Made by a program: the position numbers and the translations under genes
Origin: Ananas comosus
Lineage: Eukaryota > Streptophyta > Magnoliopsida > Poales > Bromeliaceae
Assembly (NCBI RefSeq): GCF_001540865.1
Contig: NW_017893386.1
Coordinates: 25,603 to 89,602, forward strand
Direction: 5' to 3'
Length of the DNA: 64,000 nucleotides
Notes under the pieces: model-generated
What the model was told of the DNA's origin: nothing
Seen by the model: the letters and a program-made list of their open reading frames with translations, nothing else
The model's database searches: none
Shown here: in pieces, positions 19,559 through 64,000 of the stretch
Layout: each line of letters opens with the position of its first letter
How positions within the stretch are numbered: the first letter of the stretch is position 1

Positions 19559-19694
19559 ACAGTGCCTTCTGCAATCCTTACTGCGTCAATACAGCACGCA
19601 TCTTAACTTGCCATAATGCGAAACTGTTTGTCCTGTCAAATTTCTGAATCTCGAACTTCGTCGTCATCTTAATCCTCAAAGGGAATAGAAAGTC

Positions 19695-23898: not shown

Positions 23899-23977
23899 CT
23901 TATTGCAGAGTTTCTCAAACGCTCACGAATTAATTGGTGCACAAAAAATAGGTGGGAAGAGTTTTCCTCCCTCGGCT

Positions 23978-37945: not shown

Positions 37946-37976
<31 letters not shown>

Positions 37977-39073: not shown

Positions 39074-39165
39074 CGTTATCTTTTTTATTGCAAAGTTTCT
39101 CACACTCCGGCGAATTTATTGGTGCCGAAAAAAATTGGGTGGAAAGAGGTTTCCTCATCCGGCTT

Positions 39166-39173: not shown

Positions 39174-39489
39174 GCTGCAGCCGGATAGCTCCCTGAACAG
39201 AGAAAATTTATTGTATCATATTTGCACTACATCAGCAATAATAAGTTAATCATAAATTTTATTTTAAAAAAAAATTTAATAAAAATATTTTTTTTATAAT
39301 CACGATGTGATGGATTAATTCAAAAAAAATTTATTTGATTTATTAGAGACACGACTTAACCAATTTATCCGGTGTATTCTAAAATTTTTCCGCTGGATCG
39401 GACAAAAATTACTTGGAGACTGGAAATCCGGATTTATACATTTTGACTCAGCCGGAGCCGCCGCTATTTGGACGTGGGATTTCACATCT

Positions 39490-40430
39490 CAACTTACATT
39501 TTTTTTCTTTGCTCTTGATTGCTTTTTCTGTGATAGCAATATTTGATAATAGAAATAATCCGATATGACTAAAATCAGTTGAAGAATATCTTGTATCACG
39601 CATAAAAATTAAATATACCTATATTAATTTGCACTATTTTAATAATTGTGATTTTGAGAGGTAGTTCACCTACATTTGTACTATTTTAATAAATGTGTGT
39701 TGTAGAGTGATCAGCCATTTTTTGTTCCGTGGAGAAAAAATCAGAACAATTTTGATATTTTTTTAAAAAATTTTTAGATTTGAGAGCGTTTTGCACATTT
39801 CACTTATCTATATATCCATCCTATCACCTATTATCTCCTCATCTTATTTGTAGTAGTCAACACCACATCGTTATTGTGCCATCGTAGTTCTCATAAGTAA
39901 TTGGCACATAAAAAAAAATTTTGATAAAAACATACAAAGCTTATATCATTTTAAATCAGTTATTTGATCTTTAAAAATTTTAATTTTACTATCTAATCTA
40001 TCAGTCTGTTTGATATAAATTAGCAAATAATATTTTAACTTCAAAATTTTAACCTCATTATTTACTTTAATAAATTTATAATTATGAGAATTGTATAAAG
40101 TATATATATTATCTAAATCTGTTAGAATTAACGATGTATTCATATTTTAGAATCAAAATGCTGTTGATCGACTCAAAACAAATTAACAATATTAAATAGC
40201 GAAATTAAAATTTTGAAAGATGAAATAGGCAATTCAAAATATTTTATAAGTTAGAAAAATTTTATAAGTTTTTGTCTAGAAAAAAAATTAAAGAAAAATG
40301 TCTCCCTATAAGAACCTTGTTATGGGACAACTAATAATATAGGATGGTTACATTCTGAAAACGATAGCTGACTCCTCGGCGCATGGAAGACATCTCAACA
40401 AGTCCGTTTGGCAAATTTGCTTTTTTTTTA
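39490..40430. repeat. DUF247 upstream-flank repeat, gene B copy
   Basis: TTGCTTTTTCTGTGATAGCA, ACTAAAATCAGTTGAAGAAT, GAGAGGTAGTTCACCTACAT, CAGAACAATTTTGAT, TTGTAGTAGTCAACACCACA, AGAACCTTGTTATG, GATAGCTGACTCCTCGGCGC and CCGTTTGGCAAATTTG recur in order at 51720-52680 and, in part, at 48890-49700, 50160-50560 and 24600-24768. Since this copy lies upstream of an intact gene, the others mark lost or deleted gene copies. Confidence 0.75.
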
Positions 40431-41186
40431 TAAAAGAAGTAAGGGTAATTAGGATAAAGGAAATGGGACCCTGCTGATTTATTTTATGGATAAATGCTTC
40501 GTCTACCCAAAATTTGTCCCTCAATTTTTTTTTTATTTACCTTTATTTGTTTTTTTTTTGGGACGGATTGGAAGGCAATCCAACTAGAGCGTCTTTTAAT
40601 TCTCCAGTTATATTATTTTTGTATATTGTAATGCGTTGACAGTAATAATGCATCAGTTTTAATTAACTCATATATGCAATTAATATGCTATATAAATTTA
40701 TTATAGTACTGTAGTAGCACTTTAAGATACGGTGGTTTTTTTATTTTTTATTTTTTATTTTTTGTAGATGGTATGGAAAAATATTTTTGAATGCTGTTCG
40801 TAAGTCACCTGGATTAGGCGGCCTACTTTCAACGACTTCAAAATTTTTTTTGCCGAAGTCAAAAAAGTAGATTTTAGTTATAATCCACTTCACGGGTTCA
40901 CTTTTCAAAAGTTACTTAAATGTTTACTTTTATAATCCAAACAACCGAACTAATCCCACTTCGCCAAAATATCACTTTTATTGTTTTACTTAGGGGCAAC
41001 CAAACATGCCCTTATTGAAACTAATACATTTTGTACTATACTTCATAACTTATAAAAATAAAACAAAATATTTTTTATTTCCTACCTACAAATGGATTTT
41101 AAATAAGACTTATAACTTACAACTTTATCAGAATTAAGGGTATATTTGTTTTGGTCGAAGTGGAGTTAATTGAAATGGCTGAATTT
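40431..41186. other. AT-rich spacer, no gene seen
   Basis: Contains a GGGGCAACCAAACATGCCC stretch near 40992-41011 of a kind often seen at hAT-type MITE ends, but no matching opposite terminus was found. Confidence 0.4.
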
Positions 41187-41404
41187 TCTTTTTTTTTTCT
41201 TTTTTCTTTTTTTTTTTTGAGAAATAGGTAGCTCGCTACCTGCTTCATTCATTAAGTAAAATAAACTGAGTATATAAGTTGGAAGCAGCTTAGGCTTCCG
41301 AAAAAGCAGCAAAAAGCTAAAAATAAAGCGGAAAAGATAAAGAAGGAGAAGAAGTCAAGATAACAAGAGGGATTGGAACATAGGAAGGAAGTATAGAAGG
41401 GGCA

Positions 41405-42022
41405 TCAAAGCATAGTAGTCCAATTGTTGATCAGTAGTTTGACACTATCAAGAGACCGGGTAACGTTGGGCGGCTTTCCTCTGAAAACAGAGTTGTTTCT
41501 ATCCGTCCAGATTACCCACCAAGTCGCTGCCAGGAGAATCAAGCGTTGTTTTCTCGACGAGTCAACAGGGATTTCAGTAGATGTAGCCCAGAGACTTCGA
41601 GCGTCACCTGTGCTGATGTCGGTTGCGGCCGGCCCTCCCACACTTAGGAGAATATACCGAAAGTAAACACAGTCGTTGAAAAGGTGGTCGCAGCTTTCTG
41701 TGAGTACTGCGCAGAAAGCACAGTTCTGGTCAACGTGCATGCCTCGGATAAGCAATCTGTCAGCAGTGCGTAATCTCTTTCGTAGGAGCAGTCAAATGAA
41801 GACTTTAATTTTAACGGGTATTTTCAGGTTCCAGATGTACTGATTCGTCGGCACACGCAGGCCAGCGTCCGTGATGAACTGGTAAAGGAATTTGACAGTA
41901 AAAAGTCGGTTGGAGGTCCATCGCCATTTGGTCAAGTCCGGTCTGACGCTTGGGCAACTGCTTCGAACCATGTCTTTAAGCATCGATAGCTGTCTGCGGC
42001 TTTCAGTAGAGAGAGCGGCCAT
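41405..42022 (-). pseudogene. LINE C-terminal zinc-binding domain
   Basis: Two frames: KWRWTSNRLFTVKFLYQFI and IWNLKIPVKIKVFI (41792-42022), then DQNCAFCAVLTESCDHLFND (41405-41755), the Cys/His region following plant LINE RT. Only the part beyond 42076 is repeated in the visible right arm. Confidence 0.8.
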
Positions 42023-42160
42023 GGAACCACGACAGATGAAGCGCCATCTCCAACCGTCTTGATTTCAGCATTGAGAGATCCAGACTTCCTTATTCTTGAT
42101 GTTCGAGAAGATGACCGAAAATAGGGTACGAAGAGGGGTTTCTCCAAGCCAGATGTCAGA

Positions 42161-43622
42161 TCACATCCTGATATTCCTTCCGTCGCCGAGCTCATAGGTT
42201 ACTCCGCAAGAAAACACATCTCGACAACACAGCACGCTCTTCCACCACTGCGAATAGGGGGTAAAGGCTCTATCCTCAAGCAGTGGCTTTCGCCTAACGT
42301 AGTAGAGGGACCTAATGAGATTACACCAAAGGAGGTCTGAACTGGTAAAGAAACGCCACCACCATTTAGTTATGAGGGCCAGATTCATGAATTTTAAGTC
42401 TAAGATTCTAAGTCCACCTTCTCTTTTGCTTTTGCAAACAGATTTCCAGTTGATGAGGTAAGCGCCACCGGTGATCTTGGAGCACCCCTTCCAGAAGAAG
42501 GCTTTTCTTAGGCCCTCTATCCGATTAAGCACCCATTGTGGCGCTTTAAAAATGGAAAAGTAGAATAGTGGTAGGTTGGTGAGAACCGAGTTAACGAGCG
42601 TGAGTCTTCCCCCTAATGAGAGAAGTTTAGCTTTCCAGCCTTCGATTCTTGCCTCGACCCGATTGATAACCACGGCCCAATCTTCTTTACGAAGTTGTTT
42701 ATTGTGGAGTGGTAGGCCTAGATATCGGAAAGGTAACCGTCCGACTTGGCATCCTAAAATGTTCGCGAGTCTTGCAGCCTTACGAGGGTTGGGCCCAAGT
42801 AGTACAGTTCCGATTTCTCCTTATTGATCCTAAGGCCGAAGGCCCATTCGAACATATTCCAGAGAAACAGTAGGTTATGCATAAAACGTTTTCTAGGTTC
42901 GCAGAAGAAGATTGTGTCGTCAGCGTATTGTAAGAGCACTGTTTGGCAGTCATCGGATGGTCCAATGCCGTGTAGCAGGTTGTTTTCCCTTGCGGTATCA
43001 GTCAGTCTGGCTAGACAGTTGGCCACCAATAAGAAGAGGTACGGAGGGAGGGGGTCTCCCTGCCGGAGCCCTTTCCTAGCTTTCAACCACGGGGTCGGGA
43101 CATCGTTCACTAGAATGCCAACTTTGGCATTGCAGATACATTGCTCGATCCACGCCCACCATTTATCACTAAAGCCTAGCCATTGCAATATGCATTTTAG
43201 GAAAGACCATCTGACGTTGTCGAAAGCTTTCTCGAAGTCAACCTTGATGCATGTGCATTTCCTGCCATATTTAGAGCACCAGTTTATGAGTTCACTTGCA
43301 GTGACGAAAGAGTCTGTCAACAGTCTGTCTTTGAGGAAGGTCGATTGCGTTGGGGAGATAATGGACGGTAGCTTAAGAGCTAGTCTGTTAGCCAAAACCT
43401 TAGAGATAATTTTCTGAATTCCATTGATCAGGCTTATGGGTCGAAAGTCCTTAGCCTTGCGCGCGCCCTCCTTTTCGGGATGAGGCACACGAAGGAATAG
43501 TCTGTCGGGCTTGTGAATAGTGTGCCATCGTGGAGCTCAGAGAAGACCTTGAAGATATCATCCTTGACCACATCCCAGAAGGTTTGGAAGAAGAGCAGTG
43601 GAAAGCCGTCCGGCCCGGGCAC
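42161..43622 (-). pseudogene. LINE reverse transcriptase, frameshifted
   Basis: 43434-43622 has PGPDGFPLLFFQTFWD; a frameshift near 43480 leads into 42754-43488 with DFRPISLINGIQKIISKVLA, CIKVDFEKAFDNVRW, GLRQGDPLPPYLFLLV and catalytic YADD (about 42925). A stop then separates 42161-42673 (VEARIEGWKAKLLSLGGRLT, KAFFWKGCSKITGGAYLINW). All the changes that break the frame are shared with the right arm. Confidence 0.88.
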
Positions 43623-44366
43623 CTCATCGCTACCTAGTTGAAAGGTGGCAGTCTTGACCTCCTCGAGAGTAAATGGTGCCGTCAGGCAGTCGGGATCAAG
43701 TAGTCTATTGGAGTGGTAAAGACCACTCCAGTCACCGAAAGACGAAGGACCGTTTACTTAGTTCCTAAACATTCGCTTAAAAGATTGGTAGAAGTGCGAT
43801 CTTATAAGCTCGTCGTTGGTTATCAGATGGCCGTTATCATTCTCGATGGCAACAATAGTGTTGGAGCGTTTTCGACCATTGGCAATAGAATGGAAGAACT
43901 TTGTGTTTCCATCACCTTCCTTGAGCCAGTGCTGTTTAGCCCTAGATTTTCATAGGATTTCTTCCTCCTCTAGAATTAGTAGGAGGTGTGACTTGAGTTT
44001 TGCCTGCTTCTCCAAGGTTTCCTTGGGCAGATCGTGCACTTCCTCTAGTTGGTCAATAGCTTGGAGTTCTGCTTGTAATTGATTTTTGACTTTGGTGATA
44101 CTGTGGAAGTGGGTCTTGCACCATTCTTTTATCCGGGCTCTGCAGTGTCGAAGTTTAGTCGAGATAGATAGGATGGCTGAATTCTGACCGGCAGTTTCGT
44201 TCCATCAAAAAGGGACATTGGAAGTAAAGTCCTCCCTAGTGAGCCAGACCTTTTCAAAACGAAACCTTCGTGGGACCGGTGGCAGTCCAGTTGTAAGCAC
44301 TATCGGGCTATGGTCAGAAGTGACCTTGGGGAAAGCTTTGACCTTGCTAAAGGGGAAAGATTGGTC

Positions 44367-44894
44367 TCATTCCGTCGAGATGAGAAACCTATCGAGCTTG
44401 GCCAAGGTGGGGCATTGTTGCATGTTGGACCAAGTGTATTTTTGATTAGACAACGGCAAGTCCAATACCGCGAGACTATTGATGAGATCAGAGAACATGG
44501 TCATGGCTTTGGAGCTCCAAGGCTTTCCTTTTCTTTCAGTTTGGTTCTTGGTGAAATTGAAATCTCTGCAAATTACCCAATTAGAAGAGCAGGTAGTGCT
44601 GAGGGAGAGGAGTTCGGAGCAAAACTCATCTTTGCCGACCCAAGTTGGAGGTCCGTAGACGTTCGTGATAAAGAAGGGTTTCCCACTCACAAGGTGAGTC
44701 AGGTAAAGAGTTAGCGAGTACTTACGCGCTAAAACCACATCGCACAAGAAGAATCTAGAACTCCAACAAGTAATTAAACCCCCAGAAGCCGCGGATGCGG
44801 GAACAAAAGGACACCTGTCGAAACTAGAGCCGCAACAAGAGCGGAGGAAAGACTGAGACACATAATCAACTTTGGATTCTTGGATACAAACCAC
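44367..44894 (-). pseudogene. LINE APE-like endonuclease domain
   Basis: VCIQESKVDYV, ITNVYGPPTW, ICRDFNF (normally GDFN; the glycine is Arg), and TWSNMQQCPTLAKLDRFLIS, ending at a TGA. The domain nicks target DNA to prime reverse transcription in active elements. Identical in sequence to the right-arm copy at 61182-61709. Confidence 0.87.
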
Positions 44895-45049
44895 AGAGCA
44901 GTAGTAATTAGAGATAATCGACCTAACACAACGATGCTTAGCCGGGTCGTTAAGACCGCGAACATTCTAACTCAAAATATTAAACATCAAAAGAGCGACA
45001 CACACAAAAGAGGACAACGTAAACACCAAGAGGGGCAGGGGGCTACGCG

Positions 45050-45337
45050 CTACGCACCCGCGCGTATGAACCTACGGAGCTCCGAGGCTTCGGCATCAGA
45101 GAGATCCACCCCGCACAGTAGACTCTTCGACTTGATTCTCTTCCTAGTCAGCTTGCACGCCTTAGTCCCAGGTCCCGGAGGCACGCCCTCGAGTAATCTG
45201 GCCTTCCTGCGCATAGCCCTGCAAAGAGTAGAGTCTGATTGCACGTTCAGGAGCCGCGTGCTAGATCTGAGCATACCCGAGGTGTCAAGGGAGGTAGGCA
45301 CAGCGTCCGCCTTCGAAGAATGAGAGTTTATAGGCAT
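45050..45337 (-). pseudogene. LINE upstream ORF segment
   Basis: 95 codons rich in Arg/Lys: RSSTRLLNVQSDSTLCRAMR, RKRIKSKSLLCGVDLSDAEA. It resembles the basic segment that precedes the endonuclease in plant LINEs. No longer ORF1 is present, so the element is 5'-truncated. Confidence 0.65.
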
Positions 45338-48300
45338 TCAAACAAAACCAGAGTTTGTAGGCATTCAAACGAAATCGAGGGAATAGCATTTCGTGCAGCC
45401 TACACGGTTCATACCTGTGAATCCGTTTAGCAATAAATTCAAGTATGGTACGAACTCGCAAGCACGAAGTCGAACCCCGTAGTAGAGTAAGGATATATCT
45501 AAGCTTAGTAGAGTAAGGATCAGCACGAATGTTTTGTTTTGTTTTATAAAACATTCGCTAGGATATATCTAAGCTTAGTAGTAGAGTAAGGATCAGCACT
45601 AATTACTAGAATGAGATGGATAAAGTATACATACAAAAATTTCTAGAAAAAGACCCCAAACACAGATTTTTCTTAAAGCTAATAATTATTTATACTACCA
45701 TATTGAATTGTGCTACCTAAACACTCGCCAGGGAAACATTGGGTACATTTTGGCGTCCGCATAACTATTTTACTAATATTTATGATGGATTAATTATTGT
45801 TGGACAATGACGATAAGGGGCGGCTTGGAACTGTATGCTGTAGGCCACGGGTGTATTTTGATTTATATATTTAAAAAAAAATTAAAAACTAAAACTATAT
45901 GGAATTTGCTCAAATTACAATTGATGGTCTAAATTTTTTTAAAAGAGGAACAAAAATAGCTTATTGATATAAAGTAGATCGATTTTTTTTTTTTTTTTTT
46001 TTTTTTGTGTAGCTCTAAAAAAAAAAAGAGAAAATTTTACTGCTTGAGAATTCACTTTGTTATCCTCTATAATTGGTTTTAATTTATCAAAAATAAAATC
46101 TCTTGAAAAAAAATTTATCAAGAATAAAGATGAAGCCAAAATTGGCTAAGCGATTCAACAAATATTGATAAAACTTCTGTAAGGAACTCCAAATGACACA
46201 ATATTGGAAGCGCCCTCAATTTGCTAGTACCTGTTAGTTTTATCTTCATCTAATAATTCATTAGATTTTTTTTTTAATATTCAAATTCAAAAGAAATTAA
46301 ATTTTAGAAAAAAAATTTATAACATTTGAACAAATATAAAAATGATATATGGCGATGAATTAAGACTACTTAGCGAGACGCATGTTATTGGGAGCTGCCA
46401 CTGAAGTGTTTTTCTAATAATTAATACTCTTTGATAAAGGGGTTCCCACGTGGACACGGGACCCGTCCTTCATTGAACAGTCCTCATAAATTTTGCCAGC
46501 CAAATCAACAAGAATATCACAAATCTTTTGTCAAATTAGTCATAGTTTATTAGCAAAACTAGTTAGCTAAATACATTAAAAAAAAAAAAAAAAACAAACT
46601 GACCGTCTCCTATAAATTACGATTCAAATGTTTATGTAACCAATTTAAGTTTTGAAACACAAATGATAAAAGTATAATTTCTATAGGATTTTGATAAAAT
46701 TTTTTTTTAAAACAAAAATTTGATGGAGGAAAAATAGGAGAAAATTACATCATTGCCATCGCCTTGTAATTGACACTTGGAGAGGCATTAGAGCAAATCC
46801 TTATCAGGGGGTTCGCCTATCAGTTTTTGCCCACCTGTTAGTTTTAAATTCTAACGGTGAAATTTTATTACACGGTTTTTAGGGTTAGTTACACATGTGC
46901 AAACCTTTTAGTTTGCACGTGTCTACTCAATAACTATTTTATAATATATAACCATTTGTATTTAAAACCATTCAATTTAAAGAAATAAAGAGGTCAAATT
47001 CGAATCGAGTAGAGAATTTAGCAAATACTCGATCTAACGAATTTATAATAAGTGGACCGGGTCAGAGCAGGATCGGAGCGAAAGGGTTACAATTGGATCC
47101 CAAACCTGGCCCCGTAAGGGGAAAGAATAATGTTTCCATCCAATTTATGCTGACCCAATCCTTTTTTATTTTTACATATTTATTTTTTTTTCCAAGTTCG
47201 ATGATAAAAGTTTTAGAGAACTTGGCTTAATTTATCCAAAAATGTGTATCGAGTTTTGGGTGATTAAATATGATACTTTTCTATCTTATATAAATAAGTA
47301 TAATATGTAGCGTTACATTGTACGCACAACTATTTGAATCATGTCAAATTTGGGCCGAGCATATGTTGATCCAACTAAGGCCGTAAATAATTTTATATTT
47401 TAAATAGTAGTTGGGTCTCTTTTGGGGGCCGAAAAGTATGATCCAATTCTGGTTATGGTTTGAATCAGCCTAGTGGCCCAATAGGCCTCGTGCAGTGTAT
47501 AGATCTCAGTGCCGAGTTCACCAATATTATATTAATAATATAGGTTATTTTCAAATACTCCTCAACTTTTATTTTTTTGGATGAGACTCCTTTAACTTTT
47601 TTAATGCTTTGTAATTGAATAATTGAACTATTCAAGTTACTTTAGTTGAAAATTGCATTAAAATTCATAGTTCTATTAATAATGATCGTTAATTAGTTTA
47701 GCTTTATTTGCTATTAAGAGGTTTAAATTGTTAAATTTGATGAAATCTTCAATTTTTCTTTTTAAACGAAAATTACTAAGTTCTGAAATATTGAAAGTTA
47801 AAGGGGTCTGATTTGAAAAGTTTAATGCTGAGACGGCCATTTCAATATGGCTTAGCTTATAGCTGAGGAGGTCTCTATATATTTTTACCTTTATTTTTAG
47901 GTGAATAAAATAAAATAATTATTCTTCTCTAAAAGCTTTGGTTTTGGAGCCAAGCAACTTGAAATCTGCTAATATGCAAGGTAATACATTGGCTACATGT
48001 TAATTAATAGGCAACACAAAATCTGCTAGTTTGAAACGGTCCCCTCAACATTTATTTCTTTGATTAAAACCGTTAACTTTTTGATATTTGTAAATTCATC
48101 AATTTTGATTCAAGGGAAACTTGAAGATTTTATCAAATTCATCAGTAATTTTATAAAATTTGATGACTTCAATTATTATTTAGTAAAATTAAGTTAGATA
48201 AATTAACAATTAATAGCTAATAAAGTCATCAAATTTAGATGAGAGTAAGAATGCAAACAAGGGAAATTAAAAGTTGAGGGGGACTCACTTCAAAAAATAA

Positions 48301-48740
48301 AAGCTGATAGGCCAATTTTAGTGATGTAAAAATATATAGAATGTACTTGAATAACTTTGGCTTTTTTAAAAGAAATTTAGCTGTCCAACCATTTAAAGTT
48401 TTAATTTTGGCACACAACATTTCAACTTATTTGATTTGAGCTCTTTAATAATTTTTTTGGAAAAAATATATAGATACGTTGTTTATTATTTTAATAAAAT
48501 TGTAGGAGAATAAATTAAGCAAAAATGTGCTAATCATGTACATAAAAATAAACGACATATTTAAATTTGTAAGCATAAAAATAATTAAGCAGCTCAAAAT
48601 AAATAATTTAAAAGATGAGATAATATAGAATTAATATTTTTAAATATTAGACGGGTGAATCGACATGGCGCGTTGAACTTTGGAGAAAGACCAAGAGATA
48701 GACGAGGGGGGGGTGCCCTCCATACATTTTTGACCTAAGA
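45336..48740. other. Gene-free spacer DNA in the left arm (mirror 57333-60740)
   Basis: AT-rich, with long A and T homopolymers near 45983-46030, no coding exon found. GTGCAAACCTTTTAGTTTGCACGTG at about 46906-46930 is a short hairpin containing a CACGTG G-box. Confidence 0.6.
45478..45605. repeat. Direct repeat with intervening hairpin (mirror 60471-60598)
   Basis: AGGATATATCTAAGCTTAGT and AGAGTAAGGATCAGCAC occur twice (about 45489-45528 and 45561-45598). Between them CGAATGTTTT pairs with AAAACATTCG around TTTGTTTTAT (45528-45557). Confidence 0.75.
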
Positions 48741-48748
48741 AATGAAAA

Positions 48749-48890
48749 CTACTTATTAGGGTAGACGGTGAAGAAGGTTTGTACGATGGTGAAAAAAAGA
48801 GCGGCGACTGCTCCCAAGAAAGAAAGGAAGGACCATCGGTTGCCGAAATAGTCCCTCACCAGCGTCACCCTCAACTTGGGCCAAGGGGAA
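48749..48890 (-). pseudogene. DUF247 C-terminal remnant, left arm
   Basis: 46 codons plus stop: SPWPKLRVTLVRDYFGNRWS, FLSFLGAVAALFFTIVQTFF, ending TVYPNK. It matches the C-terminal helix of genes A and B (SPWPSWRAKLVRDYFSNPWA). The rest of the gene is missing: at 48890 the remnant joins directly to DUF247 upstream-flank repeat (ATCATGCGTAAAAGTGATAT), so a deletion fused the 3' end to the promoter side. Confidence 0.87.
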
Positions 48891-51800
48891 ATCATGCGTA
48901 AAAGTGATATCTGTATTTGTACTATTTTAATATTTGTGAGTTTGAGAGGTAGGTCACCTACATCGATACTATTTTAATAAATGCGTGTTGTATAGTCAGC
49001 CCTGTCTTGTTTCGTCGAGAAGAAATCAGAACAGGTTTGATTTTTTTAAAAAAATATTTAGGTTTGAGAGTGTTTTGCACATTTCACCTGTCTATCCATC
49101 CTATCATCTATTATCTTCTCATCTTATTTGTAGTAGTCAACGCCATATGGTGCCGTCATCTTATCATATGTAACTGGCACATAAAAAAGTTGATAAAAAC
49201 ATACAAAGCTTATATTGTTTTAAATCAATTATTTAATTTTTAAAAATTTTAATTTTATTATCTAATTTTTCAATTTGTTTGATTTAAATTAGCCAATAAT
49301 ATTTTAACTTCAAAATTAAAATTTATTATTTAATTTAATAAATTTATAGTTGCGAAAATTATATAAAATACACTACTTAAATCTATTAAAATTATTGATG
49401 TATTCATATTTTAAAATTAAAATATCGTCGATTGACTCAAACAAATCAATATTATTAAATAGAGAAATTAAAATTTTGAAAAATGGAATAGGCAATTCAA
49501 AATATTTTGCAGTTTAGAAAATTTATATAAACTTTTTTCTAAAAAAATTAAGAAAAATGTCTCCTTACAAGAACCTTGTTATTGCTCAATCCTTTTGTTA
49601 ACAGCGATCGGGACAACTAATAATATCGGATGGTTACATCCTGAAAAAGATCGCTGACTCCTCGGCGCATCGAAGACCTCTCAACGACACCGTTTGGTAG
49701 GTTTGTTTTAGAAATATTTAAAAGGCTACGTTACAAAAGAACACTTTTATAAGTACTTTTTTTACTTTTCCTTCCTAACGTTTAAAAAACTGTATTTTAC
49801 TGCCTCAATATTTTAGGTTGTTACATTTAACCTCCTTTTCCGTCAGCCTTCTATTTTTTATAATTTATATAAAAAGTAATTTGCAAAGAAATAAAAATAT
49901 ATTAAAAATTAATTTTTTTCTTATAGAAGAAATAAGGATAATTAGGTTATTTTGTTCATCTCATTAACGCCGTATTCTTTTGAAAATATTTCTGAAATTT
50001 TAAGGGGGTAAAATATGGATTTTTTTAAAGTTAATAAGGAAAAGTGGAAAAACAAATATTTATAAGGAGGTTTTAGCCGAATTTTTTGGGTTCTAACATT
50101 TTCATCTGTTTCACCCTAAATTGATTAAATTTTGATTGTAGATAAGGCTTCTTTTTTTCTTTTTGCTATTAGTTGCTTCCTCTGTGATAGTAACGTTTGA
50201 TAATAGAAATAACCCGGTATAACTAAAACCAATTGAAGAATTAATACCGTGTATCACACATAAAAAAGACACCTATATTTATTCTATATAAATAATTGTG
50301 AGTTCGAAAGATAGGTCACCTAGCTACATCTATACTATTTTAATAATTGTGAGTTTGAGCTGTAGGCTATCTATATCTATATTAATTTAATAATTGTGAG
50401 TTTGAGAGATAGATTAGTCGGCCCTTTTTTGTTCTGTCGAGAATAAATCCCAATCGTTTGATTTTTAAGATTTAAGACCTGTTTGTATATTTCATCTATT
50501 TATCCACTCTATCATCTATTATTATCTCCTCATCTTATATGTAAGTCAATTTTAAAAATTAAATATTAAATAGTTTTAAATTTTTAAATTCATTTATTTA
50601 AATTTGTGTTGTAGGGAATTAATTCCTCCCTTAGCTTAATTAGGATCCGCGTAGGAGGAAAAATTCTAGAATGCAACGGATATATTAGTGACGTGGCGTA
50701 ACAAACCAATCAAATTAATCCTTTTAAGAATATATGTCCCATCATGATTGTAAAAAAATATTTGTATTATACTTTTGTTTGAAAAGAAGGAATGTGATTG
50801 GCTTGTTATTGATGACGTGGTGCAAGTGTGACAGTGTAGAATTTCTCGCGTAGGAGAGCTCCCAACATCCGGTCTAGGTTTCGATGGGCGCGGAGTCAAC
50901 GATCGTTTTCGGTCTTTACTACATAATCCAAGGGGCCGTTCTCACAATCAATGTCACAATGTGATTCACATACTTTTGTCTCTGTTGCGTCATTAATTTG
51001 TTATTATTCTAGTAATCAACACCTCGTCACGCCATTGTCATCCTCGTACATAATCCGCACACAAAAAATAGATTAAAACATATAAAATTTACGCCATTTT
51101 TGATTCGATTATTTATTTTTTTAAAATTTTAATTTTATTATTTAATTTTTTAGTTTGTTTGATTTGAATTAGCCAATAATATTTTAATTTCAAAATTTAA
51201 GTTTATTTTTAATTTAATAAATTTATAGTTGTGATAATTGTACATTTGTATAAAGTATACTGGCTAGCTAAATTTATTGAGATAAATAACATATTCATAT
51301 TTTAAAATTAAGATATCATTAGTTGACTCAAATCAAACAAATTAAAAAGTTTAGATAATGAAATTAAAATTTGAAAGGTTGGATAAGCAATTCAAAATAT
51401 TTTATAGTTTAGATAAATTTTATATAATTTTATCTTAAAAATATTAAAGAATAATGTCTCCTTGCAAGAAACCTTGTTATTGCTCCTTTTGTCCATAGCG
51501 ATTGGGACAGCTATTAATATAGGATGGTTACATACTTGTATCCCGAAAAAGATTGCTGACTCCTTGGCGCATCGAAGATCTCTCAACTAATCCTTTTGGT
51601 GGGTCCATTTTAAAAATACTTAGAAAGTCAAATTCTTTTTGGTTCGAAACTTTTCACCGGTTTCATTCTAAATTGATTAAATTTTGGTGGTAGATAAGGC
51701 ATTTTTTTCTTTGCTTTTGATTGCTGTGATAGTAATATTTGATAGTAGAAATAATTCGATATGACTAAAACCAGTTGAAGAATATCTTGTATCACGCGTA

Positions 51801-52680
51801 AAAGAGATATCTATATTTGTACTATTTTAATAATTGTGAGTTTGAGAGGTAGGTCATCTACATCTGTACTATTTTAATAAATATGCGTTGTAGAGCGATC
51901 AGCCCTTTTTTGATCTGTCGAGAAAAAATCATAACAGTTTTGAAGTTTTTTTTTTTATTTTTTATTTTAGATTTGAGAGCGTTTTGCACATTTCACCTAT
52001 CTATTCACCTTATCATCTATTATCTTCTCATCTTATTTGTAGTAGTCAACACCACATGGTACCATCGTCGTCTTCATAAGTAATTGGCACATAAAAAAAT
52101 TGCTAAAAACATACAAAGGTTATATCATTTTAAATCAGTTATTTAATCTTTAAAAATTTTAATTTTACTATTCAATCTTTCAGTTTATTTGATTTAAGTT
52201 AGCCAATAATACTTTAACTTCAAAACTTTAAGTTTATTTTTTAATTTAATAAATTTATAATTGTGTGAATTGTATAAAATTATCTAAATCTATTAGAATT
52301 AACGTTGTATTCATATTTTAAAATTCAAGTGCTGTTGATCGACTCAAAACAAACTAACAATATTAAATAGCGAAATTAAAATTTTGAAAGATGGAATCGG
52401 CAATTCAAAATATTTTATAGTTTAGAAAAATTATATTAGTTTTTGTCTAGAAAAAAATTGAAGAAAAATGTCTCCCGACAAGAACCTTGTTATTGCTCCT
52501 TTTGTCGACAGCAATGGGGACAACTAAAAATATAGGATGGTTACAACCTGAAAAAGATCGCAGACTCCGAGTAATATAGGATGGTTGCATTCCGAAAATG
52601 ATAGCTGACTCCTCGGCACATGGAAGACCTCTCAACATGTCCGTTTGGCAAATTTGTTTTAGAAATACTTAAAAGGCTTT
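48891..52680. repeat. Tandem DUF247 upstream-flank units, left arm
   Basis: At least three partial units: 48891-49700, 50100-50560 and 51650-52680. Each has blocks such as GAGAGGTAGGTCACCTACAT, TTGTAGTAGTCAACGCC, AGAACCTTGTTATTGCTC and GATCGCTGACTCCTCGGCGC. 50590-51060 is separate, containing GTGACGTGGCGTAACAAACC and TGATGACGTGGTGCAAGTG. No intact gene remains. Confidence 0.65.
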
Positions 52681-52869
52681 ACAGAATTTTTTTTATTTTA
52701 TAAATAGCTATTTTTTTTACTTCTTCTCTTTAATTTTCAAAAAGTTGTATTTTATAGTCTCAACATTTCAAGTTGTTGTATTTAGCTTTCTTCCGTCAGG
52801 GTTACATCATTATTATGTCAATTTCTTATAATTTATATTGAAAATAACCTTCAAAATGATAAAAATATA

Positions 52870-53203
52870 AAAGAAATATAAACAAATAATAACAAAAAAA
52901 AAAGAATGGAAAATGAAATAAAAAAAAAAAAAAAAACCGAAGACTCAAGTCGACAATACTATTGATTCACATTTACTAGCTTTTTATTCTAAATATCCTC
53001 TCAAAACTACAACGGAGGAAATATAAAATATAAAAATAGCATAAACTAGTATAACAAGATAAACAAAATTTTTTTATTTTTAATTAATATAAAATATGAT
53101 CATAATATAATAAATAAAAAATAATAATTCAGAAAAATAATAAAAAAAGAAAAAAAAATAATACTATCATAAAATTTCTACAAGAAAAAAAAATAACTTT
53201 TAA
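52870..53203. other. Palindrome spacer (334 bp)
   Basis: Not palindromic and extremely A-rich. About 52940-53000 resembles a decayed SINE 3' half (ATTGATTCACATTTACTAGCTTTTTATTCTAAAT). The right end (about 53160-53203, read on the minus strand: TTAAAAGTTATTTTTTTTTC, TTGTAG) matches the sequence that follows the same motif in the paralogous unit at 49905-49930. The right arm therefore runs naturally into the spacer, and the true joint is at 52869/52870. Confidence 0.8.
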
Positions 53204-53392
53204 TATATTTTTATCATTTTGAAGGTTATTTTCAATATAAATTATAAGAAATTGACATAATAATGATGTAACCCTGACGGAAGAAAGCTAAATACAACAA
53301 CTTGAAATGTTGAGACTATAAAATACAACTTTTTGAAAATTAAAGAGAAGAAGTAAAAAAAATAGCTATTTATAAAATAAAAAAAATTCTGT

Positions 53393-56300
53393 AAAGCCTT
53401 TTAAGTATTTCTAAAACAAATTTGCCAAACGGACATGTTGAGAGGTCTTCCATGTGCCGAGGAGTCAGCTATCATTTTCGGAATGCAACCATCCTATATT
53501 ACTCGGAGTCTGCGATCTTTTTCAGGTTGTAACCATCCTATATTTTTAGTTGTCCCCATTGCTGTCGACAAAAGGAGCAATAACAAGGTTCTTGTCGGGA
53601 GACATTTTTCTTCAATTTTTTTCTAGACAAAAACTAATATAATTTTTCTAAACTATAAAATATTTTGAATTGCCGATTCCATCTTTCAAAATTTTAATTT
53701 CGCTATTTAATATTGTTAGTTTGTTTTGAGTCGATCAACAGCACTTGAATTTTAAAATATGAATACAACGTTAATTCTAATAGATTTAGATAATTTTATA
53801 CAATTCACACAATTATAAATTTATTAAATTAAAAAATAAACTTAAAGTTTTGAAGTTAAAGTATTATTGGCTAACTTAAATCAAATAAACTGAAAGATTG
53901 AATAGTAAAATTAAAATTTTTAAAGATTAAATAACTGATTTAAAATGATATAACCTTTGTATGTTTTTAGCAATTTTTTTATGTGCCAATTACTTATGAA
54001 GACGACGATGGTACCATGTGGTGTTGACTACTACAAATAAGATGAGAAGATAATAGATGATAAGGTGAATAGATAGGTGAAATGTGCAAAACGCTCTCAA
54101 ATCTAAAATAAAAAATAAAAAAAAAAACTTCAAAACTGTTATGATTTTTTCTCGACAGATCAAAAAAGGGCTGATCGCTCTACAACGCATATTTATTAAA
54201 ATAGTACAGATGTAGATGACCTACCTCTCAAACTCACAATTATTAAAATAGTACAAATATAGATATCTCTTTTACGCGTGATACAAGATATTCTTCAACT
54301 GGTTTTAGTCATATCGAATTATTTCTACTATCAAATATTACTATCACAGCAATCAAAAGCAAAGAAAAAAATGCCTTATCTACCACCAAAATTTAATCAA
54401 TTTAGAATGAAACCGGTGAAAAGTTTCGAACCAAAAAGAATTTGACTTTCTAAGTATTTTTAAAATGGACCCACCAAAAGGATTAGTTGAGAGATCTTCG
54501 ATGCGCCAAGGAGTCAGCAATCTTTTTCGGGATACAAGTATGTAACCATCCTATATTAATAGCTGTCCCAATCGCTATGGACAAAAGGAGCAATAACAAG
54601 GTTTCTTGCAAGGAGACATTATTCTTTAATATTTTTAAGATAAAATTATATAAAATTTATCTAAACTATAAAATATTTTGAATTGCTTATCCAACCTTTC
54701 AAATTTTAATTTCATTATCTAAACTTTTTAATTTGTTTGATTTGAGTCAACTAATGATATCTTAATTTTAAAATATGAATATGTTATTTATCTCAATAAA
54801 TTTAGCTAGCCAGTATACTTTATACAAATGTACAATTATCACAACTATAAATTTATTAAATTAAAAATAAACTTAAATTTTGAAATTAAAATATTATTGG
54901 CTAATTCAAATCAAACAAACTAAAAAATTAAATAATAAAATTAAAATTTTAAAAAAATAAATAATCGAATCAAAAATGGCGTAAATTTTATATGTTTTAA
55001 TCTATTTTTTGTGTGCGGATTATGTACGAGGATGACAATGGCGTGACGAGGTGTTGATTACTAGAATAATAACAAATTAATGACGCAACAGAGACAAAAG
55101 TATGTGAATCACATTGTGACATTGATTGTGAGAACGGCCCCTTGGATTATGTAGTAAAGACCGAAAACGATCGTTGACTCCGCGCCCATCGAAACCTAGA
55201 CCGGATGTTGGGAGCTCTCCTACGCGAGAAATTCTACACTGTCACACTTGCACCACGTCATCAATAACAAGCCAATCACATTCCTTCTTTTCAAACAAAA
55301 GTATAATACAAATATTTTTTTACAATCATGATGGGACATATATTCTTAAAAGGATTAATTTGATTGGTTTGTTACGCCACGTCACTAATATATCCGTTGC
55401 ATTCTAGAATTTTTCCTCCTACGCGGATCCTAATTAAGCTAAGGGAGGAATTAATTCCCTACAACACAAATTTAAATAAATGAATTTAAAAATTTAAAAC
55501 TATTTAATATTTAATTTTTAAAATTGACTTACATATAAGATGAGGAGATAATAATAGATGATAGAGTGGATAAATAGATGAAATATACAAACAGGTCTTA
55601 AATCTTAAAAATCAAACGATTGGGATTTATTCTCGACAGAACAAAAAAGGGCCGACTAATCTATCTCTCAAACTCACAATTATTAAATTAATATAGATAT
55701 AGATAGCCTACAGCTCAAACTCACAATTATTAAAATAGTATAGATGTAGCTAGGTGACCTATCTTTCGAACTCACAATTATTTATATAGAATAAATATAG
55801 GTGTCTTTTTTATGTGTGATACACGGTATTAATTCTTCAATTGGTTTTAGTTATACCGGGTTATTTCTATTATCAAACGTTACTATCACAGAGGAAGCAA
55901 CTAATAGCAAAAAGAAAAAAAGAAGCCTTATCTACAATCAAAATTTAATCAATTTAGGGTGAAACAGATGAAAATGTTAGAACCCAAAAAATTCGGCTAA
56001 AACCTCCTTATAAATATTTGTTTTTCCACTTTTCCTTATTAACTTTAAAAAAATCCATATTTTACCCCCTTAAAATTTCAGAAATATTTTCAAAAGAATA
56101 CGGCGTTAATGAGATGAACAAAATAACCTAATTATCCTTATTTCTTCTATAAGAAAAAAATTAATTTTTAATATATTTTTATTTCTTTGCAAATTACTTT
56201 TTATATAAATTATAAAAAATAGAAGGCTGACGGAAAAGGAGGTTAAATGTAACAACCTAAAATATTGAGGCAGTAAAATACAGTTTTTTAAACGTTAGGA

Positions 56301-57182
56301 AGGAAAAGTAAAAAAAGTACTTATAAAAGTGTTCTTTTGTAACGTAGCCTTTTAAATATTTCTAAAACAAACCTACCAAACGGTGTCGTTGAGAGGTCTT
56401 CGATGCGCCGAGGAGTCAGCGATCTTTTTCAGGATGTAACCATCCGATATTATTAGTTGTCCCGATCGCTGTTAACAAAAGGATTGAGCAATAACAAGGT
56501 TCTTGTAAGGAGACATTTTTCTTAATTTTTTTAGAAAAAAGTTTATATAAATTTTCTAAACTGCAAAATATTTTGAATTGCCTATTCCATTTTTCAAAAT
56601 TTTAATTTCTCTATTTAATAATATTGATTTGTTTGAGTCAATCGACGATATTTTAATTTTAAAATATGAATACATCAATAATTTTAATAGATTTAAGTAG
56701 TGTATTTTATATAATTTTCGCAACTATAAATTTATTAAATTAAATAATAAATTTTAATTTTGAAGTTAAAATATTATTGGCTAATTTAAATCAAACAAAT
56801 TGAAAAATTAGATAATAAAATTAAAATTTTTAAAAATTAAATAATTGATTTAAAACAATATAAGCTTTGTATGTTTTTATCAACTTTTTTATGTGCCAGT
56901 TACATATGATAAGATGACGGCACCATATGGCGTTGACTACTACAAATAAGATGAGAAGATAATAGATGATAGGATGGATAGACAGGTGAAATGTGCAAAA
57001 CACTCTCAAACCTAAATATTTTTTTAAAAAAATCAAACCTGTTCTGATTTCTTCTCGACGAAACAAGACAGGGCTGACTATACAACACGCATTTATTAAA
57101 ATAGTATCGATGTAGGTGACCTACCTCTCAAACTCACAAATATTAAAATAGTACAAATACAGATATCACTTTTACGCATGAT
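53393..57182. repeat. Tandem DUF247 upstream-flank units, right arm
   Basis: Mirror image of 48891-52680. I found no difference from the left arm in this part by comparing translated frames and spot-checked sequence. Confidence 0.65.
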
Positions 57183-57324
57183 TTCCCCTTGGCCCAAGTT
57201 GAGGGTGACGCTGGTGAGGGACTATTTCGGCAACCGATGGTCCTTCCTTTCTTTCTTGGGAGCAGTCGCCGCTCTTTTTTTCACCATCGTACAAACCTTC
57301 TTCACCGTCTACCCTAATAAGTAG
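57183..57324 (+). pseudogene. DUF247 C-terminal remnant, right arm
   Basis: Same 46-codon remnant as 48749-48890, on the plus strand, ending at TAG 57322-57324. The same deletion junction is present. Confidence 0.87.
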
Positions 57325-60300
57325 TTTTCATTTCTTAGGTCAAAAATGTATGGAGGGCACCCCCCCCTCGTCTATCTCTTGGTCTTTCTCCAAAGTTCAA
57401 CGCGCCATGTCGATTCACCCGTCTAATATTTAAAAATATTAATTCTATATTATCTCATCTTTTAAATTATTTATTTTGAGCTGCTTAATTATTTTTATGC
57501 TTACAAATTTAAATATGTCGTTTATTTTTATGTACATGATTAGCACATTTTTGCTTAATTTATTCTCCTACAATTTTATTAAAATAATAAACAACGTATC
57601 TATATATTTTTTCCAAAAAAATTATTAAAGAGCTCAAATCAAATAAGTTGAAATGTTGTGTGCCAAAATTAAAACTTTAAATGGTTGGACAGCTAAATTT
57701 CTTTTAAAAAAGCCAAAGTTATTCAAGTACATTCTATATATTTTTACATCACTAAAATTGGCCTATCAGCTTTTATTTTTTGAAGTGAGTCCCCCTCAAC
57801 TTTTAATTTCCCTTGTTTGCATTCTTACTCTCATCTAAATTTGATGACTTTATTAGCTATTAATTGTTAATTTATCTAACTTAATTTTACTAAATAATAA
57901 TTGAAGTCATCAAATTTTATAAAATTACTGATGAATTTGATAAAATCTTCAAGTTTCCCTTGAATCAAAATTGATGAATTTACAAATATCAAAAAGTTAA
58001 CGGTTTTAATCAAAGAAATAAATGTTGAGGGGACCGTTTCAAACTAGCAGATTTTGTGTTGCCTATTAATTAACATGTAGCCAATGTATTACCTTGCATA
58101 TTAGCAGATTTCAAGTTGCTTGGCTCCAAAACCAAAGCTTTTAGAGAAGAATAATTATTTTATTTTATTCACCTAAAAATAAAGGTAAAAATATATAGAG
58201 ACCTCCTCAGCTATAAGCTAAGCCATATTGAAATGGCCGTCTCAGCATTAAACTTTTCAAATCAGACCCCTTTAACTTTCAATATTTCAGAACTTAGTAA
58301 TTTTCGTTTAAAAAGAAAAATTGAAGATTTCATCAAATTTAACAATTTAAACCTCTTAATAGCAAATAAAGCTAAACTAATTAACGATCATTATTAATAG
58401 AACTATGAATTTTAATGCAATTTTCAACTAAAGTAACTTGAATAGTTCAATTATTCAATTACAAAGCATTAAAAAAGTTAAAGGAGTCTCATCCAAAAAA
58501 ATAAAAGTTGAGGAGTATTTGAAAATAACCTATATTATTAATATAATATTGGTGAACTCGGCACTGAGATCTATACACTGCACGAGGCCTATTGGGCCAC
58601 TAGGCTGATTCAAACCATAACCAGAATTGGATCATACTTTTCGGCCCCCAAAAGAGACCCAACTACTATTTAAAATATAAAATTATTTACGGCCTTAGTT
58701 GGATCAACATATGCTCGGCCCAAATTTGACATGATTCAAATAGTTGTGCGTACAATGTAACGCTACATATTATACTTATTTATATAAGATAGAAAAGTAT
58801 CATATTTAATCACCCAAAACTCGATACACATTTTTGGATAAATTAAGCCAAGTTCTCTAAAACTTTTATCATCGAACTTGGAAAAAAAAATAAATATGTA
58901 AAAATAAAAAAGGATTGGGTCAGCATAAATTGGATGGAAACATTATTCTTTCCCCTTACGGGGCCAGGTTTGGGATCCAATTGTAACCCTTTCGCTCCGA
59001 TCCTGCTCTGACCCGGTCCACTTATTATAAATTCGTTAGATCGAGTATTTGCTAAATTCTCTACTCGATTCGAATTTGACCTCTTTATTTCTTTAAATTG
59101 AATGGTTTTAAATACAAATGGTTATATATTATAAAATAGTTATTGAGTAGACACGTGCAAACTAAAAGGTTTGCACATGTGTAACTAACCCTAAAAACCG
59201 TGTAATAAAATTTCACCGTTAGAATTTAAAACTAACAGGTGGGCAAAAACTGATAGGCGAACCCCCTGATAAGGATTTGCTCTAATGCCTCTCCAAGTGT
59301 CAATTACAAGGCGATGGCAATGATGTAATTTTCTCCTATTTTTCCTCCATCAAATTTTTGTTTTAAAAAAAAATTTTATCAAAATCCTATAGAAATTATA
59401 CTTTTATCATTTGTGTTTCAAAACTTAAATTGGTTACATAAACATTTGAATCGTAATTTATAGGAGACGGTCAGTTTGTTTTTTTTTTTTTTTTTAATGT
59501 ATTTAGCTAACTAGTTTTGCTAATAAACTATGACTAATTTGACAAAAGATTTGTGATATTCTTGTTGATTTGGCTGGCAAAATTTATGAGGACTGTTCAA
59601 TGAAGGACGGGTCCCGTGTCCACGTGGGAACCCCTTTATCAAAGAGTATTAATTATTAGAAAAACACTTCAGTGGCAGCTCCCAATAACATGCGTCTCGC
59701 TAAGTAGTCTTAATTCATCGCCATATATCATTTTTATATTTGTTCAAATGTTATAAATTTTTTTTCTAAAATTTAATTTCTTTTGAATTTGAATATTAAA
59801 AAAAAAATCTAATGAATTATTAGATGAAGATAAAACTAACAGGTACTAGCAAATTGAGGGCGCTTCCAATATTGTGTCATTTGGAGTTCCTTACAGAAGT
59901 TTTATCAATATTTGTTGAATCGCTTAGCCAATTTTGGCTTCATCTTTATTCTTGATAAATTTTTTTTCAAGAGATTTTATTTTTGATAAATTAAAACCAA
60001 TTATAGAGGATAACAAAGTGAATTCTCAAGCAGTAAAATTTTCTCTTTTTTTTTTTTGAGAGCTACACAAAAAAAAAAAAAAAAAAAAAAAAATCGATCT
60101 ACTTTATATCAATAAGCTATTTTTGTTCCTCTTTTAAAAAAATTTAGACCATCAATTGTAATTTGAGCAAATTCCATATAGTTTTAGTTTTTAATTTTTT
60201 TTTAAATATATAAATCAAAATACACCCGTGGCCTACAGCATACAGTTCCAAGCCGCCCCTTATCGTCATTGTCCAACAATAATTAATCCATCATAAATAT

Positions 60301-60740
60301 TAGTAAAATAGTTATGCGGACGCCAAAATGTACCCAATGTTTCCCTGGCGAGTGTTTAGGTAGCACAATTCAATATGGTAGTATAAATAATTATTAGCTT
60401 TAAGAAAAATCTGTGTTTGGGGTCTTTTTCTAGAAATTTTTGTATGTATACTTTATCCATCTCATTCTAGTAATTAGTGCTGATCCTTACTCTACTACTA
60501 AGCTTAGATATATCCTAGCGAATGTTTTATAAAACAAAACAAAACATTCGTGCTGATCCTTACTCTACTAAGCTTAGATATATCCTTACTCTACTACGGG
60601 GTTCGACTTCGTGCTTGCGAGTTCGTACCATACTTGAATTTATTGCTAAACGGATTCACAGGTATGAACCGTGTAGGCTGCACGAAATGCTATTCCCTCG
60701 ATTTCGTTTGAATGCCTACAAACTCTGGTTTTGTTTGAAT
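57325..60740. other. Gene-free spacer DNA in the right arm
   Basis: Mirror of 45336-48748. Homopolymers near 60050-60093 differ in length from the left arm (poly-A of 25 against 24, poly-T of 12 against 11, plus a local GAGAG difference), giving the net 3-bp shift. Confidence 0.6.
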
Positions 60741-63700
60741 GCCTATAAACTCTCATTCTTCGAAGGCGGACGCTGTGCCTACCTCCCTTGACACCTCGGG
60801 TATGCTCAGATCTAGCACGCGGCTCCTGAACGTGCAATCAGACTCTACTCTTTGCAGGGCTATGCGCAGGAAGGCCAGATTACTCGAGGGCGTGCCTCCG
60901 GGACCTGGGACTAAGGCGTGCAAGCTGACTAGGAAGAGAATCAAGTCGAAGAGTCTACTGTGCGGGGTGGATCTCTCTGATGCCGAAGCCTCGGAGCTCC
61001 GTAGGTTCATACGCGCGGGTGCGTAGCGCGTAGCCCCCGGCCCCTCTTGGTGTTTACGTTGTCCTCTTTTGTGTGTGTCGCTCTTTTGATGTTTAATATT
61101 TTGAGTTAGAATGTTCGCGGTCTTAACGACCCAGCTAAGCATCGTTGTGTTAGGTCGATTATCTCTAATTACTACTGCTCCGTGGTTTGTATCCAAGAAT
61201 CCAAAGTTGATTATGTGTCTCAGTCTTTCCTCCGCTCTTGTTGCGGCTCTAGTTTCGACAGGTGTCCTTTTGTTCCCGCATCCGCGGCTTCTGGGGGTTT
61301 AATTACTTGTTGGAGTTCTAGATTCTTCTTGTGCGATGTGGTTTTAGCGCGTAAGTACTCGCTAACTCTTTACCTGACTCACCTTGTGAGTGGGAAACCC
61401 TTCTTTATCACGAACGTCTACGGACCTCCAACTTGGGTCGGCAAAGATGAGTTTTGCTCCGAACTCCTCTCCCTCAGCACTACCTGCTCTTCTAATTGGG
61501 TAATTTGCAGAGATTTCAATTTCACCAAGAACCAAACTGAAAGAAAAGGAAAGCCTTGGAGCTCCAAAGCCATGACCATGTTCTCTGATCTCATCAATAG
61601 TCTCGCGGTATTGGACTTGCCGTTGTCTAATCAAAAATACACTTGGTCCAACATGCAACAATGCCCCACCTTGGCCAAGCTCGATAGGTTTCTCATCTCG
61701 ACGGAATGAGACCAATCTTTCCCCTTTAGCAAGGTCAAAGCTTTCCCCAAGGTCACTTCTGACCATAGCCCGATAGTGCTTACAACTGGACTGCCACCGG
61801 TCCCACGAAGGTTTCGTTTTGAAAAGGTCTGGCTCACTAGGGAGGACTTTACTTCCAATGTCCCTTTTTGATGGAACGAAACTGCCGGTCGGAATTCAGC
61901 CATCCTATCTATCTCGACTAAACTTCGACACTGCAGAGCCCGGATAAAAGAATGGTGCAAGACCCACTTCCACAGTATCACCAAAGTCAAAAATCAATTA
62001 CAAGCAGAACTCCAAGCTATTGACCAACTAGAGGAAGTGCACGATCTGCCCAAGGAAACCTTGGAGAAGCAGGCAAAACTCAAGTCACACCTCCTACTAA
62101 TTCTAGAGGAGGAAGAAATCCTATGAAAATCTAGGGCTAAACAGCACTGGCTCAAGGAAGGTGATGGAAACACAAAGTTCTTCCATTCTATTGCCAATGG
62201 TCGAAAACGCTCCAACACTATTGTTGCCATCGAGAATGATAACGGCCATCTGATAACCAACGACGAGCTTATAAGATCGCACTTCTACCAATCTTTTAAG
62301 CGAATGTTTAGGAACTAAGTAAACGGTCCTTCGTCTTTCGGTGACTGGAGTGGTCTTTACCACTCCAATAGACTACTCGATCCCGACTGCCTGACGGCAC
62401 CATTTACTCTCGAGGAGGTCAAGACTGCCACCTTTCAACTAGGTAGCGATGAGGTGCCCGGGCCGGACGGCTTTCCACTGCTCTTCTTCCAAACCTTCTG
62501 GGATGTGGTCAAGGATGATATCTTCAAGGTCTTCTCTGAGCTCCACGATGGCACACTATTCACAAGCCCGACAGACTATTCCTTCGTGTGCCTCATCCCG
62601 AAAAGGAGGGCGCGCGCAAGGCTAAGGACTTTCGACCCATAAGCCTGATCAATGGAATTCAGAAAATTATCTCTAAGGTTTTGGCTAACAGACTAGCTCT
62701 TAAGCTACCGTCCATTATCTCCCCAACGCAATCGACCTTCCTCAAAGACAGACTGTTGACAGACTCTTTCGTCACTGCAAGTGAACTCATAAACTGGTGC
62801 TCTAAATATGGCAGGAAATGCACATGCATCAAGGTTGACTTCGAGAAAGCTTTCGACAACGTCAGATGGTCTTTCCTAAAATGCATATTGCAATGGCTAG
62901 GCTTTAGTGATAAATGGTGGGCGTGGATCGAGCAATGTATCTGCAATGCCAAAGTTGGCATTCTAGTGAACGATGTCCCGACCCCGTGGTTGAAAGCTAG
63001 GAAAGGGCTCCGGCAGGGAGACCCCCTCCCTCCGTACCTCTTCTTATTGGTGGCCAACTGTCTAGCCAGACTGACTGATACCGCAAGGGAAAACAACCTG
63101 CTACACGGCATTGGACCATCCGATGACTGCCAAACAGTGCTCTTACAATACGCTGACGACACAATCTTCTTCTGCGAACCTAGAAAACGTTTTATGCATA
63201 ACCTACTGTTTCTCTGGAATATGTTCGAATGGGCCTTCGGCCTTAGGATCAATAAGGAGAAATCGAAACTGTACTACTTGGGCCCAACCCTCGTAAGGCT
63301 GCAAGACTCGCGAACATTTTAGGATGCCAAGTCGGACGGTTACCTTTCCGATATCTAGGCCTACCACTCCACAATAAACAACTTCGTAAAGAAGATTGGG
63401 CTGTGGTTATCAATCGGGTCGAGGCAAGAATCGAAGGCTGGAAAGCTAAACTTCTCTCATTAGGGGGAAGACTCACGCTCGTTAACTCGGTTCTCACCAA
63501 CCTACCACTATTCTACTTTTCCATTTTTAAAGCGCCACAATGGGTGCTTAATCGGATAGAGGGCCTAAGAAAAGCCTTCTTCTGGAAGGGGTGCTCCAAG
63601 ATCACCGGTGGCGCTTACCTCATCAACTGGAAATCTGTTTGCAAAAGCAAAAGAGAAGGTGGACTTAGAATCTTAGACTTAAAATTCATGAATCTGGCCC

Positions 63701-64000
63701 TCATAACTAAATGGTGGTGGCGTTTCTTTACCAGTTCAGACCTCCTTTGGTGTAATCTCATTAGGTCCCTCTACTACGTTAGGCGAAAGCCACTGCTTGA
63801 GGATAGAGCCTTTACCCCCTATTCGCAGTGGTGGAAGAGCGTGCTGTGTTGTCGAGATGTGTTTTCTTGCGGAGTAACCTATGAGCTCGGCGACGGAAGG
63901 AATATCAGGATGTGATCTGACATCTGGCTTGGAGAAACCCCTCTTCGTACCCTATTTTCGGTCATCTTCTCGAACATCAAGAATAAGGAAGTCTGGATCT
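60741..64000 (+). mobile_element. LINE, right palindrome arm, cut by the window end
   Basis: Same dead LINE on the plus strand: upstream ORF piece 60739-61026, endonuclease 61182-61709, RT 62454-63322 (YADD near 63150), RT thumb 63403-63915. It shares all frameshifts and stops of the left copy, so it was inactive before the duplication. Confidence 0.9.

Follow-up and report, generated by a model that had tools for sequence, protein, structure and literature searches.

The near-perfect palindrome at the end of contig C2901 of pineapple (Ananas comosus) is present in the deposited sequence but was quite probably made during sequencing or assembly, and as biology it is most likely not a real feature. 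The stretch analysed in this study, here called the window, comprises the final 64,000 bases of this contig (C2901:25603-89602), and the assembly searched, with 381,958,007 bp in 3,128 contigs, is taken to be that of A. comosus F153. We prefer a misjoin of two pieces because the right arm stops at the contig end, the spacer shows a native polarity and the homologous locus on contig C7 is free of a palindrome; the odds that we give to this reading are set by the first two. Both a blastn search of the window against itself and an explicit alignment of the two arms support the original prediction of a near-perfect palindrome around a 334-bp spacer, with arms at the coordinates listed below. The self-match pairs 53204-64000 with 52869-42076 on the minus strand at 99.907% identity over 10,797 columns, and a match of this length rules out a chance origin of the inverted repeat. 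The arms measure 10,794 bp (left) and 10,797 bp (right), and the predicted net change of 3 bp is made up of one extra base in a T run and a 2-base CA difference. The alignment counts seven substitutions, however, where six had been claimed, and although a chromosomal location in the plant was implied, the sequence belongs to a contig of 89.6 kb among the 3,128. The palindrome and its proposed parts are as follows:

42076..52869, plus strand: left arm, following without a break on the 42 kb at its left; an insertion of a LINE (long interspersed nuclear element) spans 42076
52870..53203: spacer, A-rich, 334 bp; its reverse complement would be the native continuation of the arm
53204..64000, minus strand: right arm, the reverse complement of the left arm, finishing at the last base of C2901
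52869..52870: probable false (novel) join; the homologues at window 49902 and C7:13526490 run into the reverse complement of the spacer
52870..64000, minus strand: putative redundant piece of 11,131 bp, attached flipped

Window position 64000 is the last base of the 89,602-bp contig, which the right arm reaches exactly, and since the contig terminates there, the palindrome as assembled is limited to 21.9 kb in full. At the other side, position 42076 is no natural border but merely the partner of the contig end, because the LINE insertion runs across it into the left flank. The spacer contains 194 A, 86 T, 32 C and 22 G (GC content 16%), and both inner piece ends sit in A/T-rich low-complexity DNA, in which short-read contigs frequently break off. 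The contig end lies one base beyond a GATC site, of which there are 31 in the arm, and none of eight other contig ends compared has GATC in its last six bases; the end of C2901 is possibly a cloning-site end, but we give this observation no weight. The predicted single-strand fold of the palindrome centre merely mirrors the pairing of the arms, and a sigma-70 promoter scan of the centre is meaningless in a plant host.

The native side of a suspicious centre can be told by comparing the spacer with homologous loci, without reads. The inner end of the arm has a paralogue in a repeat at 49621-49945, which extends into the reverse complement of the spacer, whereas its match to the spacer as written ends within about 12 bases. 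We scored anchored extensions past the arm end, over 150 or 40 bases, against dinucleotide shuffles and random anchors. Over 150 bases, the score of the paralogue against the reverse-complemented spacer was reached by none of 300 shuffles and by one of 300 random anchors, while against the spacer as written it was reached by 125/300 and 91/300, respectively. Over the first 40 bases, the score against the reverse complement was reached by no shuffle and no random anchor (0/500 each) for the paralogue, and by 3/500 shuffles and 1/500 random anchors for the locus on C7; the spacer as written gave shuffle-like scores in this test (288/500 and 149/500). An unanchored 150-base test with C7 was not significant, as 55 of 500 mononucleotide shuffles scored at least as high. 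Homologous sites (n=2, the paralogue at 49.6-49.95 kb and C7) thus agree with one side of the centre only. As judged from these alignments, the join at 53203/53204 would be native and that at 52869/52870 new. Since both homologous sites continue into the reverse complement of the spacer, the spacer and the right arm appear to form one native piece of 11,131 bp, which, when turned round, would overlap the left arm and lengthen it by 334 bp. A duplicated arm that terminates at a contig end and a centre with a single side that matches homologous loci are features expected of a misjoin, and both were found here, the latter at two sites.

The locus on C7 matches the window collinearly in pieces (window 39.2-40.7, 41.0-41.2, 45.3-47.4, 50.9-51.1, 51.4-51.6 and 51.8-52.9 kb) and at C7:13526490, beyond the arm end, goes on to follow the reverse-complemented spacer. 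A blastn search of the 16 kb at C7:13517000-13533000 yielded inverted repeats no longer than 164 bp (83% identity). The matching pieces are about 69-95% identical to the window, and the C7 locus may be a paralogue. The LINE insertion is absent from C7, where the counterparts of window 41012-41188 and of 45343 onward meet at about C7:13516832, suggesting either that the LINE arrived once the two loci had diverged or that C7 lost it cleanly. Where the arm has a fragment of 44 amino acids of a DUF247 protein, C7 has a longer DUF247-like stretch (C7:13521206-13522711).

The differences between the arms are few and not evenly placed. The substitutions lie at left-arm positions 42674, 42810, 43698, 44185, 44895, 44943 and 45037, all seven inside the LINE insertion (41189..45342), and together with the two small indels (insertions or deletions) they are confined to the outer 3.9 kb (42674-46017), leaving an inner 6,852 bp free of any difference. 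Six of the seven are at CG sites and one at CCG, six are transitions, and the cluster falls in the GC-richer outer part of the arms. A gene-conversion gradient toward the centre gave p ~0.0009 when length alone was considered but ~0.015-0.018 with CG or CG+CHG targets, and it is not claimed. Nor was a decay of methyl-cytosines split evenly between the arms borne out by five LINE relatives, which are 83.7-85.6% identical to the left arm and come from 42 further matches listed. These relatives share the non-CG base of the left arm at 43698 (5/5), 44185 (5/5) and 44895 (3/4, the fourth having T), and the non-CG base of the right arm at 42674 (3/4). All four that could be scored have C at 42810, as in the left arm, and C at 45037, as in the right arm, and at 44943 all four have G, the base of neither arm. 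After this comparison, the direction of the seven substitutions is left open.

These differences bear on two other ways in which the palindrome could have been made without the plant. The original prediction had allowed that two haplotypes were joined head to head, and we consider such a joining of two allelic haplotypes by the assembler, a version that overlaps with the misjoin, unlikely. Pineapple is highly heterozygous and the arm differences look natural, but their number is a poor fit: between its haplotypes F153 has 1.54% single-nucleotide polymorphisms (SNPs) and 0.35% indels according to PMC6139296, from which some 166 SNPs and 38 indels are calculated for 10.8 kb, where 7 and 2 are observed, and even the least diverse chromosome of MD2, at 1.1%, predicts 119. 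The divergence of the arms (7/10,794, or 0.065%) does not equal the heterozygosity of the plant, and rescue of a haplotype join would need a locally near-homozygous stretch. Given this deficit, two near-identical versions of one haplotype would be the likelier source, unless the stretch is unusually homozygous. It is more doubtful still that the assembly took over, unchanged, a fold-back molecule from the library (one with a hairpin adapter missed, or a read formed by self-priming or ligation), a reading that likewise overlaps with an assembly artefact. Fold-back reads are reported at about 0.55-0.6% in Nanopore genomic libraries, with one example that has about 2 kb between its segments, but the same source describes virtually none in PacBio HiFi data (PMC12870357). 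Moreover, a missed adapter leaves no unpaired native spacer of 334 bp, and a copy of a single molecule ought not to carry seven CG-linked substitutions; the earlier argument that the substitutions speak against the copying of a single read is a reasonable one.

We propose that the native locus would read left flank, arm, reverse complement of the spacer and onward. One contig (window 1-52869) would have halted at the arm end, right before a T-rich tract, and a redundant piece of 11,131 bp from the same locus (window 52870-64000), longer by 334 bp at this end, would have been appended end to end and flipped in place of being merged onto the left arm to extend it. The seven substitutions would then be differences between two near-identical versions of one haplotype, for which changes in a read, a clone or an amplification, or a low-divergence allelic stretch, are candidate sources. 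Two elements of this account are inferred: an origin of the join in the assembly rather than in the plant, and the type of read or subassembly behind the second piece. The F153 assembly, given as 381.9 Mb in 3,133 scaffolds (PMC6139296), was built from Illumina, Moleculo and PacBio data and 9,400 BACs (bacterial artificial chromosomes) as described in PMC6022998, and a chimeric sequence has been reported in chromosome 25 of the later F153 v7 (PMC8774480).

The original prediction left two options, an inverted duplication of very recent origin and a fold-back of the assembly onto itself. Our analysis favours the assembly, and a real young duplication, with a contig cut short within the right arm where the assembler failed to proceed, is kept as a rather unlikely alternative. 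Such a duplication could arise if breakage affected two copies of the locus, such as sister chromatids with breaks at the arm end and 334 bp beyond, which then fused head to head, or if a broken strand folded back and primed synthesis; in yeast, foldback inverted duplications after double-strand breaks are documented (PMC10622511). It predicts the same spacer polarity, its CG-linked substitutions appear natural, and the centre adjoins a tandem array of the DUF247-flank repeat, plausibly a break-prone site. At 1.3e-8 to 2.5e-9 substitutions per site and year, rates as used in PMC6022998 and PMC7023750, a divergence of 7/10,794 would correspond to roughly 25,000-130,000 years. On the other hand, the arm end coincides with the contig end to the base, and the C7 locus has no palindrome, although its pieces are only ~69-95% identical and it may be a paralogue. 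Nor does the left flank (39200-42075), the expected mirror continuation, have a second copy above 94% identity among the matches listed, a count that is a lower bound. Long inverted arms with a short spacer are also expected to be unstable, as would apply to these arms with their 334-bp spacer. A genuine polymorphic inverted duplication in its full form, at least 10.8 kb per arm, roughly of the above age, lying in a DUF247 cluster and giving hairpin RNA if transcribed, is in our judgement improbable.

Several points weigh against the misjoin. A genuine inverted duplication predicts the spacer polarity equally and could likewise end a contig. There are no N letters across the window, and hence none at the 52869/52870 join. 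The substitutions are the chief point that the misjoin leaves partly unexplained: because all seven are linked to CG or CCG, they are probably not random consensus errors but have the look of natural variants. Mis-polishing by reads of other LINE copies is an unlikely source as well, since the nearest listed copies are only 85-88% identical (a full-length copy at ~85% and a partial one at 88% over 868 bp, with 40 of 389 candidates scored), which makes reads of other assembled copies implausible. Our copy searches in the assembly are lossy, so that their counts are lower bounds. With arm pieces 42600-45100, 46100-48700 and 50300-53203 as queries, no third full-length match of at least 99% identity was among the matches listed, only the two arms of C2901, and a full-length match to the spacer was listed in C2901 alone. 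The search with 47200-50300 was uninformative, with 39 of 3,017 candidates scored and the two places of C2901 itself not among them, and the arm stretches outside the informative searches are 42076-42599, 45101-46099 and 48701-50299. Finally, fold-backs at contig ends show no sign of being a general feature of this assembly. In the terminal 10 kb of eight neighbouring contigs (89.4-91.4 kb), none of the top three inverted matches by length in each contig reached 99% identity; five contigs had no inverted match and three had matches of 75-89%, in a control where arms longer than 5 kb are undetectable within 10 kb and three of the eight stretches hold N (50, 1,615 and 2,602). One of the three contig ends with matches (C2903:79404-89403, at about 7709-9996 of that stretch) is satellite-like, with inverted and direct matches of 77-85%.

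The arms contain relics and repeats, and no complete gene was found among the reading frames examined in them. The features recognized are:

41189..45342, minus strand: insertion with a frame-broken plant LINE relic (a non-LTR element, that is, without long terminal repeats); RVT_1 match with E=4.8e-28 at 42754-43536
48758..48889, minus strand: C-terminal DUF247 fragment of 44 amino acids, a pseudogene, matched by tblastn with protein P0007 at E=9e-12 and mirrored at 57184-57315
48891..52612, plus strand: degenerate tandem copies of a DUF247 upstream-flank repeat at about 48.9-49.7, 50.07-50.55, 51.0-51.6 and 51.7-52.6 kb

The left end of the insertion is T-rich (41188-41219), where the poly(A) tail of a minus-strand element would lie, and putative endonuclease-like and zf-RVT-like parts of the relic are named by appearance, without a family match. 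A related copy of the DUF247-flank repeat lies at 39.5-40.4 kb, and elsewhere the repeat sits upstream of a full DUF247 gene. Both the LINE and the DUF247 fragment are oriented outward from the palindrome centre. An element of about 190 bp at 50652-50849, mirrored in the right arm, has at least 33 further copies of 95-98% identity across the assembly, and is perhaps a short interspersed nuclear element (SINE) or a miniature inverted-repeat transposable element (MITE). No RNA family at the gathering threshold and no tRNA was found in the 64-kb window. DUF247 (PF03140) genes lie on the minus strand at 22306-23922 and 37415-39115, and a cluster is also present at C7:13.504-13.527 Mb; the closest homologues of the protein at 22306-23922 are pineapple proteins, the best of which shares 95% identity across 97% of the query. 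Pineapple is described as a self-incompatible crop (PMC6139296). In grasses, genes of the DUF247 type are discussed in connection with the S and Z loci of self-incompatibility. A Copia-type polyprotein, open through 1,294 codons, is encoded at 15701-19585 on the minus strand and has a 93-95% relative at C7:13.5294-13.5330 Mb.

The palindrome carries a caution, that contig ends in the pineapple assembly can bear redundant pieces in flipped orientation, by which a locus is doubled and a false palindrome created. Were it true, it would be a large and young plant palindrome, a site to study the origin of such structures and the silencing of neighbouring gene families, and, if transcribed across the centre, it could give a long hairpin RNA capable of silencing, in trans, this LINE family and the flanks upstream of DUF247. 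It resembles fold-back or misjoined redundant contigs in having an inverted copy of a locus at a contig end and native sequence on one side of the centre, and differs from them in its seven substitutions and N-free join. Real palindromes in plants do have a precedent in the W sex region of the willow Salix purpurea, which has long inverted arms of high identity (20 kb, above 99% on average) around a spacer for which the text gives 2.6 kb and a table 3,586 bp; the willow arms show signs of gene conversion and hold genes (PMC7023750), whereas no complete gene was seen in the arms of pineapple. The foldback duplications of yeast share an inverted duplication about a short non-duplicated centre, but they were recovered in living clones, whereas the pineapple structure is known from one contig (PMC10622511). 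Mu killer of maize is likewise an inverted duplication with transposable-element sequence, for which read-through transcription into a hairpin is proposed (PMC3440606), while the LINE and DUF247 fragment here point outward from the centre.

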